Of a DNA stretch of 46,984 bases, positions 840 through 46,984 are shown in pieces; positions within the stretch are counted from its first letter, which is position 1, and every line of letters starts with the position of its first letter. The DNA is taken from contig JABFQN010000011.1 of the NCBI GenBank assembly GCA_019685555.1, positions 1 to 46,984 on the forward strand. Reading direction: 5' to 3'. Source of the stretch: Candidatus Bathyarchaeota archaeon A05DMB-3. GTDB lineage: Archaea > Thermoproteota > Bathyarchaeia > Bathyarchaeales > Bathycorpusculaceae. Position numbers and translations under genes: made by a program. A model generated the notes under the pieces. That model was not told the DNA's origin. It made no database searches and worked only from the letters and a program-made list of their open reading frames with translations.

Positions 840-1013
840 TTTTGGTTGTGAAAATAGTCAATAGCGATCCCCCTCTAGATTTTCCAGTTATAAGGCAAAG
901 TCAATTTTACAACACTAGAAAACGTTAAATTAACATCAATTAATAGAAGGGAATTTTTATCTTGTTTGTAAATGTCTTTAGGGTTAAAATTCTTCCAAAA
1001 GCGGAAAAAGGAT

Positions 1014-31487: not shown

Positions 31488-33185
31488 TTATGGGCGGGTC
31501 TTGTTCTTTCCTTTTGCCGCTATTGCAACTGTAAATGCAAGCAATGCCACTGTAATGGTTAACATTGTAAACTCGGGTATTATATGCGTTTCGAAGTAGA
31601 CTCCTGCCACTGGGGTTTGCGCAGTGTTCCCTGCCTTATCAACTGCCATTATGTAATAGTAGATTGTTGTGCATGGTTCCAAACTGCCTGAAGGAATTGT
31701 AGCTGTGTATTGGTTGCCTGTTGTTGGGTTCATTTGAATTTCCCTCCATTCTGTGGCTGAAATGTTGTAGTACAGCGAGACTTTTTCAGGGTTTAGCTCT
31801 GTTACGTTAACCTTCACCGTTATGTTGTAGCCAACTTCCACCTCCACAGTTTCACCTGGCTGAACCACTTGTCCCGGCGGGTCTTGATACGGATTGGATA
31901 TTGAAGGCGCCGTATTATCCAAAGTAAAGGTTACAGTGTCTGAAGCTGTGTTCTGGGCTAAGTCTGTGAAGTGCACAGTCACTGTTATTTGGCTGTCAGG
32001 TAGGGCTGTGTTGTTTAGGAAGGCAAACTTTCCAGTAGCGGTTTCCCACACTTGAAGGGTAAATCTTGCATCGTTTATTGTTGGGGTTTGAGCTCCCACA
32101 TTGGTTTCCGTTATTGTTCCATTTATCCACACCTTGCCAGTGGACAGATAGGCGCCGTCTATTGGGTAAGTTATTGTCACCGTCGGGTTAGTGTTGTCAA
32201 CTATTACGGCGTTCGTCTGGGTTGCTGTAGCGCTTAAATCGTAGATATTGAAGATTGTCACGTTTAGATTGTAAGAGCCTTCTGCTGTTCCAGCGGGTAT
32301 TGGCAAGATTTCTGTTCTTTGAATGTTTGTTCCACCAACCAAATCCGTTATTGTCCTGGTGACTACAGTGTGGGTTGAGTTATAAACTTTGATCGTCGCG
32401 TTTTTAGGGTTTATCTCTGTGTATTGGTATGTAACTTGAACTGTTTGGTCGGACTGAGTATACGTCGGACTTGTCGTTGTTGGACTGATTATTGTCACCG
32501 TAGGTGGTTCCGGTGGAACCTCTTCAGTTACTGTGAAATTCCATGTTTCTGTTGCAAGATTTCCAGCCAAATCTTCAACCGACAAACCTATACTGTAGTG
32601 TCCCGAGGTTAATGGATTTGTTTGACAGTAAAGCAGCCCTGTTTCCGAGTCGTAGGTCGGCGTGAGTTCAGTTGCGTTCAGTGTCAGTGTTATTGTTGCG
32701 GCATCCAACGCGAAGTTGTCGGTTATTGTTGCGTTAATCCATGTGGGTTGGTTTGGCGGCAGTGTTTCGTTGGGTGTTGGGGAGATTATTTCGATTGTTG
32801 GCGGGGTTGTGTCGATGACGGTGAGGTTTAATGTGAGAAAGGTTCCCTGGTGGAAGACTATACGCGTGACATTAATGTTTTTAACCCAAAGATCTATTGG
32901 CATATTGTCTTGAGAGGCGCTTGCGCCAAGCATGTAATATCCGTTTGAATCTGTTATCCATTTTCTATTAGGATCCTCCACATTGATTATTGTTGTGCCT
33001 TCTTTGGCGTAAACGGCGAATCCCGCTGGCACTGTCTTGTTTGTTTCGTCTATTCTGCGGATTAGCACATAGCCATCTATGGTCATGGGTATTAGCGGCA
33101 CTTGGAGTTTGGCTAGTGGGATTAAAAATGCCGCAGCTAATAGTGCGATTAAGATTATTGTAGCAAGTTTTTGAGGTTTCTCCAT
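31488..33185 (-). CDS. Secreted Ig-like repeat surface protein with PEF-CTERM-like tail
   Basis: 565 residues: signal segment KLATIILIALLAAAFLIPLA, a carboxypeptidase-regulatory-like domain (about 40-120), then three or more Ig-like/cadherin-like repeats with TPPTIEIISPTPNE-type starts. The end is IIPEFTMLTITVALLAF plus a basic tail (KGKNKTRP). Pro-Glu-Phe before a membrane helix and basic residues resembles the PEF-CTERM sorting signal used by archaeosortases. The start at ATG 33185 is chosen because GGAGG lies about 9 bases upstream; a longer frame to 33281 would run into the previous gene. It is probably the second gene of a two-gene operon with the 766-residue protein. Confidence 0.8.
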   Translation of the reverse strand: MEKPQKLATIILIALLAAAFLIPLAKLQVPLIPMTIDGYVLIRRIDETNKTVPAGFAVYAKEGTTIINVEDPNRKWITDSNGYYMLGASASQDNMPIDLWVKNINVTRIVFHQGTFLTLNLTVIDTTPPTIEIISPTPNETLPPNQPTWINATITDNFALDAATITLTLNATELTPTYDSETGLLYCQTNPLTSGHYSIGLSVEDLAGNLATETWNFTVTEEVPPEPPTVTIISPTTTSPTYTQSDQTVQVTYQYTEINPKNATIKVYNSTHTVVTRTITDLVGGTNIQRTEILPIPAGTAEGSYNLNVTIFNIYDLSATATQTNAVIVDNTNPTVTITYPIDGAYLSTGKVWINGTITETNVGAQTPTINDARFTLQVWETATGKFAFLNNTALPDSQITVTVHFTDLAQNTASDTVTFTLDNTAPSISNPYQDPPGQVVQPGETVEVEVGYNITVKVNVTELNPEKVSLYYNISATEWREIQMNPTTGNQYTATIPSGSLEPCTTIYYYIMAVDKAGNTAQTPVAGVYFETHIIPEFTMLTITVALLAFTVAIAAKGKNKTRP

Positions 33186-41734: not shown

Positions 41735-41750
41735 GCGGATGAGAATCCGC
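41735..41750 (+). ncRNA. Hairpin with GAGA tetraloop in the eL15 mRNA leader
   Basis: GCGGAT, GAGA, ATCCGC is a perfect 6-base-pair stem capped by a GNRA loop, extendable by two G-U pairs. A second small hairpin, AACC...GGTT, follows at about 41759-41771. The region is GC-rich in an AT-rich leader and ends about 50 bases before the ATG. A cis-regulatory element binding a ribosomal protein is possible. Confidence 0.4.
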
Positions 41751-41800
41751 TGGGATGTAACCTTTAGGGTTGAACCATAAACTATAAGCGAGGTGAAAAA

Positions 41801-46892: not shown

Positions 46893-46910
46893 CTTTAAAA
46901 TATATTTTAG
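46893..46910 (+). promoter_or_regulatory. TATA box of the C/D box sRNA gene
   Basis: CTTTAAAATATATTTTAG is centred near 46901, which predicts transcription from about 46927, a few bases before the C box. It is an exceptionally AT-rich element in this stretch. Confidence 0.5.
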
Positions 46911-46929: not shown

Positions 46930-46984
46930 GGGGGGATGATGTAGCCGTCCCAGTCTGATTTAAGCATATGAGGAACTCATGACG
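46930..46984 (+). ncRNA. C/D box sRNA (rRNA 2'-O-methylation guide), truncated by the window edge
   Basis: Box C ATGATGT is at 46936-46942, a 12-base guide at 46943-46954, box D' CTGA at 46955-46958, a 9-base spacer, box C' ATGAGGA at 46968-46974, and a second guide from 46975 to the edge. The 12-base C-to-D' spacing is the archaeal hallmark. The first guide (AGCCGTCCCAGT) can pair with the 23S P-loop ACUGGGGCGGU and would direct methylation to the G equivalent to E. coli G2251. The second (ACTCATGACG) can pair with helix 93, CGUCGUGAG. The rRNA sequences are recalled from E. coli, not from this organism. Box D is predicted just beyond the edge, near 46987. Confidence 0.75.

Follow-up and report, generated by a model that had tools for sequence, protein, structure and literature searches.

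INTRODUCTION

Archaeal C/D sRNAs are a well-described class with an established box consensus and N+5 rule (PMC4644070, PMC7994747), and their turnover is quick, fewer than two-thirds of predicted targets being common even within one genus (PMC7994747). The closest described counterparts of the RNA reported here are sRNAs predicted to act on the P-loop nucleotide of 23S rRNA equivalent to Escherichia coli G2251 (alignment position G2520), for example sR13/45 of Methanopyrus kandleri; the main text of Dennis et al. (2015; PMC4644070) predicts it to be guide-directed in three of the seven species, so G2251 is not new as a guided target in archaea, and also assigns both helix 93 and the P-loop to the P site. 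Our RNA is of the same kind and has the same predicted P-loop site; it differs in being found phylum-wide and in Asgard archaea, against three of seven species in that main text, and in a box D that reads CAGA in Bathyarchaeia.

The RNA lies at the end of a 46,984-base stretch of DNA (the window). This stretch makes up the whole of contig G000:C15 in a genome of 1.46 Mb (96% complete), the close relatives of which carry the name Bathyarchaeia; the contig ends inside the sRNA gene. The nucleotide predicted as its P-loop target is the same one that is methylated in eukaryotes via a C/D snoRNA (yeast snR67), which combines the P-loop G site with a different second site, and in bacteria by RlmB (Gm2251), a protein-only enzyme. 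Asgard archaea, which enter the comparison below, are the closest archaeal relatives of eukaryotes.

RESULTS

A C/D sRNA gene is cut off by the contig end

The elements of the locus are listed in Table 1. A first-pass annotation, made from the sequence alone, had described a truncated C/D guide RNA with boxes C, D', and C' and an exact 12-base guide between boxes C and D'; all of these can be read directly, boxes C and C' being RUGAUGA-like and box D' following a guide of 12 nt, within the 10 to 12 nt of archaeal C/D sRNAs. The stem begins 75 bases beyond the stop codon (46856) of an upstream 461-amino-acid open reading frame, and no protein gene overlaps the sRNA; a protein-coding origin was rejected on these grounds. 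Single-strand folding was uninformative (z of about -1.3), a weak signal that is expected because the C/D fold is protein dependent.

Table 1. Features at the 3' end of the window, whose last 55 bases read GGGGGG-ATGATGT-AGCCGTCCCAGT-CTGA-TTTAAGCAT-ATGAGGA-ACTCATGACG before the contig ends
Feature	Position	Strand	Remark
BRE/TATA-like promoter element TTTAAAATATATTT	46894-46907	+	Matches the relatives' upstream signal in register
GGGGGG run	46930-46935	+	Read directly
Terminal stem, 5' strand GGGG	46931-46934	+	CCCC partner beyond contig end; covaries in relatives
Box C, ATGATGT	46936-46942	+	Read directly; kept in 95 distinct full-length relatives
D' guide AGCCGTCCCAGT, 12 nt	46943-46954	+	Antisense to 23S P-loop
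Box D', CTGA	46955-46958	+	Read directly; CTGA or CCGA in relatives
Spacer TTTAAGCAT	Between box D' and box C'	+	Read directly
Box C', ATGAGGA	46968-46974	+	Read directly; TGAGGA, TGAAGA, or TGACGA in most relatives
D guide ACTCATGACG, ten bases visible	46975-46984	+	Antisense to helix 93

When 82 distinct upstream regions from relatives were aligned on the stem G-run, from which positions were counted, information peaked at -35 to -33 (A-rich) and at -30 to -25 (T-T-A/T-rich). Because this BRE/TATA signal is aligned at -35 to -25 upstream of the stem, the sRNA is probably an independently promoted gene. The archaeal C/D machinery is encoded in the source genome, with a fibrillarin gene adjoining the Nop5 gene and two proteins of the L7Ae family.

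Relatives complete the RNA and its terminal stem

In relatives the RNA continues as ...ATGAGGA-ACTCATGACGGA-CAGA-CCCC, giving a full length of about 64 nt, and the contig therefore stops two bases before box D. From these relatives the window would be expected to continue with CAGACCCC at 46987-46994, with box D at 46987-46990; the box D of the window copy itself and its 3' stem strand are unassembled and are predicted from relatives. The first-pass annotation had placed a CTGA at about 46987-46990. The distance was right, as a box D analogue stands there in relatives (CAGA, CGGA, CTGA, CCGA, or TTGA), whereas the sequence was not, the window's family having CAGA. The GGGG/CCCC terminal stem shows compensatory changes in all four pairs, and its covariation score lies above those of all 500 shuffles and of all slid versions.

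The remaining contig ends of the source genome were all checked for a continuation of the sRNA, and none provides it. Just as the window stops in the sRNA gene, many contigs of this metagenome-assembled genome stop in a tRNA or rRNA gene (contig ends L236, L241, L249, L269, L285, and others), so that conserved RNA genes probably interrupted the assembly.

The sRNA is conserved across the phylum and in Asgard archaea

Of 61 relatives, 43 carried the core from box C through the guide to box D' (TGATGNAGCCGTCCCAGTCTGA, up to 3 mismatches), whereas the reversed pattern, used as a control, matched in 2 genomes. A covariance model of the whole RNA, built from 32 relatives, matched 191 of 300 genomes of the phylum as well as the truncated window copy itself (E value, 4.4e-7). 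Searching all genome contigs with a degenerate pattern returned mostly Bathyarchaeia, together with Jordarchaeia, Baldrarchaeum, Njordarchaeota, Thermoprotei, Terraquivivens, and some DPANN; some bacterial matches, lacking the downstream boxes, also came up. The same two-guide layout is found in other Thermoproteota and in Asgard archaea. Viral contigs and plasmids gave no match to the sRNA, and there is no second copy elsewhere in the source genome. Degenerate copies of the 5' half (GATGATGTCGCCGTCCCAGCCTTAGGGCAAAGTAA), without C' and D, were seen in three genomes a few kilobases from the true gene (L031, ~840-905, minus strand; L090, 324; L108, 2382-2436, minus strand).

An Rfam scan of the window returned only an eL15 leader and no C/D family. 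The relatives' Rfam matches were all to C/D-box families and weak, below the gathering score (the best being 22.6 against 45 bits for L028 and 34.7 against 45 for L221). Their best archaeal subthreshold matches, snoPyro_CD (RF00095), sR5 (RF01304), and sR60 (RF01309), share the same architecture, with every score below gathering. The eL15 leader (eL15-Euryarchaeota, RF03144, 40.8 bits; window positions 41735-41781) lies directly upstream of an eL15-like open reading frame; the family is named for Euryarchaeota, yet the host genome is bathyarchaeial.

Both guides pair with the peptidyl-transferase center of same-family 23S rRNA

The P-loop and helix 93 of the source organism's own 23S rRNA were not found in the metagenome-assembled genome, and targets were taken from the 23S rRNA of same-family genomes, with boundaries from Rfam and fragments in relatives located by an A-loop pattern. 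This yielded GGCUGGGGCGGCA as the P-loop target (four genomes) and GACCGUCGUGAGACAGG as the helix 93 target (five genomes). One bacterial-looking 23S fragment in a Bathyarchaeia assembly (L166; G018:C13) is probably contamination and was left out as a target.

The D' guide forms 11 contiguous pairs of 12, two of them G-U, with the P-loop, and its fifth base from box D' faces the equivalent of E. coli G2251, whose 2'-O-methylation it would direct. The P-loop is the best site for this guide in the 23S rRNA, with a score equaled by 5 of 300 shuffled guides. The ten visible bases of the D guide form nine pairs (one G-U) with helix 93; in relatives the guide is 12 nt (ACTCATGACGGA/G), and the full family guide ACTCATGACGGA forms 10 contiguous pairs (one G-U), a result equaled by 8 of 300 shuffles. 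Its fifth base from box D faces the helix 93 nucleotide U2593 (E. coli numbering, obtained by counting from E. coli A2602), and the D guide would thus be predicted to direct 2'-O-methylation there. Both guides are complementary to same-family rRNA with the fifth base paired. The first-pass annotation had proposed an 11-of-12 match to the P-loop, with the fifth base on G2251, and a nine-base match to helix 93 from E. coli sequence; with same-family rRNA in its place, both matches hold.

The helix 93 register (at least 8 contiguous pairs over the fifth position) is retained by 56 of the 101 sequences matched by the model, including some from Bathyarchaeia, other Thermoproteota, and Asgard Jordarchaea. 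The single-guide shuffle values are modest; the conservation of both guides in the same register is the strong evidence.

One sRNA aimed at two loops, as the first-pass annotation had it, is what relatives have too, although not universally: an unrelated D guide accompanies an intact P-loop guide in 7 of the 27 members of the window's family. Because these members have lost or replaced the helix 93 guide, P-loop guidance appears to be the constant function, and the helix 93 half is usual, not universal. The changed D guides seen in some relatives (CTACAAGGCTGG, ATGAAAAACGA, and ATTGACGTTGA) have no site in 23S rRNA better than shuffles. Terraquivivens and its kin (L078, L093, L113, L125, and L132) keep the P-loop guide and carry GGAAGAGCCGAG as the D guide, which forms 11 contiguous Watson-Crick pairs with UCGGCUCUUCC, another stretch of the catalytic center (0 of 300 shuffles); in this group box C TGAGG occurs together with box D CCGA.

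Box D varies together with its kink-turn partner

Full-length copies in the window's family have CAGA as box D in 26 of 27 cases and CGGA in 1, so the literal CUGA is absent from these copies; across 95 distinct full-length sequences, archaeal outgroups included, CAGA occurs in 79. CUGA is a consensus and not an absolute requirement, and a few divergent boxes are reported by Dennis et al. (PMC4644070). A box D-box C kink-turn, with its tandem G-A pairs beside the terminal stem, is nevertheless supported in relatives by the covarying stem and by the 3b-3n position, where the model alignment gives the box C-box D combinations U-A (48), G-C (14), G-U (6), A-U (3), and U-G (3), the other 25 sequences being mostly U-U; since the sequences share ancestry, these counts overstate independent events. 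A box C with G goes with CCGA or CTGA and never with CAGA, whereas a box C with U goes mostly with CAGA or CTGA; the exceptions are three sequences with a box C A and CAGA. Because the altered base varies jointly with its box C partner in the kink-turn, we read CAGA as putting a Watson-Crick pair in place of the usual U-U, and the box as remodeled, not broken.

A second C/D sRNA candidate was noticed in the same genome (L184, 1488-1560; G000:C28, ~32177-32250, plus strand), with a perfect GAAGCC/GGCTTC stem and a D' guide that forms nine contiguous pairs with 23S UCGGCUCUUC in the catalytic center (18 of 300 shuffles equal). Its box D is CTGA, and CAGA is therefore not a genome-wide habit.

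DISCUSSION

The window very probably ends in a stand-alone archaeal C/D sRNA gene of about 64 nt that guides 2'-O-methylation at P-loop G2251 and helix 93 U2593. What the sequences offer in favor of this is the gene with its boxes, the stem covariation, the promoter signal, both pairings, the deep conservation, and the protein genes, and from these we infer expression, RNP assembly, methylation at both sites, and an effect on the ribosome. In such an RNP, two kink-turns bound by L7Ae would form, one from boxes C and D and the other from boxes C' and D', and Nop5 and fibrillarin would join; pairing of the D' guide with the P-loop would lead to 2'-O-methylation of the G2251 equivalent, and pairing of the D guide with helix 93 to that of U2593. 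In this way the sRNA may tune the active site of the ribosome, as the first-pass annotation suggested.

It is also conceivable, if rather improbable, that the RNA guides methylation with its D' half only and that the D half, with its CAGA box, binds helix 93 without methylating it, mainly tethering the P-loop to helix 93 during folding of the peptidyl-transferase center. Dual-site chaperone roles have been proposed for archaeal C/D sRNAs (PMC4644070), and a near-invariant D' guide beside a D guide lost or replaced in 7 of 27 members, together with a box D departing from CUGA, would fit such a division of labor. Against this, the D-guide register is maintained, so that Bathyarchaeia, other Thermoproteota, and Asgard archaea all have the same U facing the fifth base, even in lineages whose box D is a canonical CTGA; CAGA, moreover, retains the kink-turn GA and pairs with box C.

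Since the 3' end is unseen, the gene could be real in the family and decayed in the source genome, with the defect hidden by the contig break, and degenerate 5'-half copies do occur near the real gene in three relatives; we nonetheless hold it to be very unlikely, as the visible boxes, both guides, and the promoter all match the family consensus and the source genome has no second copy. C/D motifs are short, and shuffled guides match at rates of about 2 to 7% per single guide, so a chance resemblance in an intergenic stretch was also considered; with conservation and covariation extending over many genomes, its probability is negligible, and we rejected it as refuted by the relatives.

On the history of this dual-guide RNA, we lean cautiously toward a single orthologous P-loop/helix 93 sRNA, already present in the ancestor shared by Thermoproteota and Asgard archaea and retained ever since, whose terminal kink-turn was rebuilt in Bathyarchaeia with U-A (box D CAGA) in place of U-U. 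Box C/D kink-turns fold only with L7Ae, and in kink-turn folding the -1b:-1n pair is the main determinant, to which 3b:3n makes a smaller, additive contribution (Ashraf, Huang, and Lilley; PMC5689011). The U-A replacement would possibly alter folding before or on L7Ae binding, and the covarying position in boxes C and D supplies natural variants with which to test the kink-turn pairs that L7Ae tolerates.

In the main texts of openly accessible papers we found no report of this sRNA in Bathyarchaeia, of a CAGA box D, or of a guided U2593. The RNA is of a known kind, and what sets it apart is its unusual box D and its unusually wide conservation. If the proposed history is true, retention this deep would contrast with the rapid replacement of guides reported for archaeal C/D sRNAs. 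With both guides recurring phylum-wide and in Asgard archaea, the P-loop and helix 93 stand out as places from which guided methylation, or guided folding, may not easily be lost.
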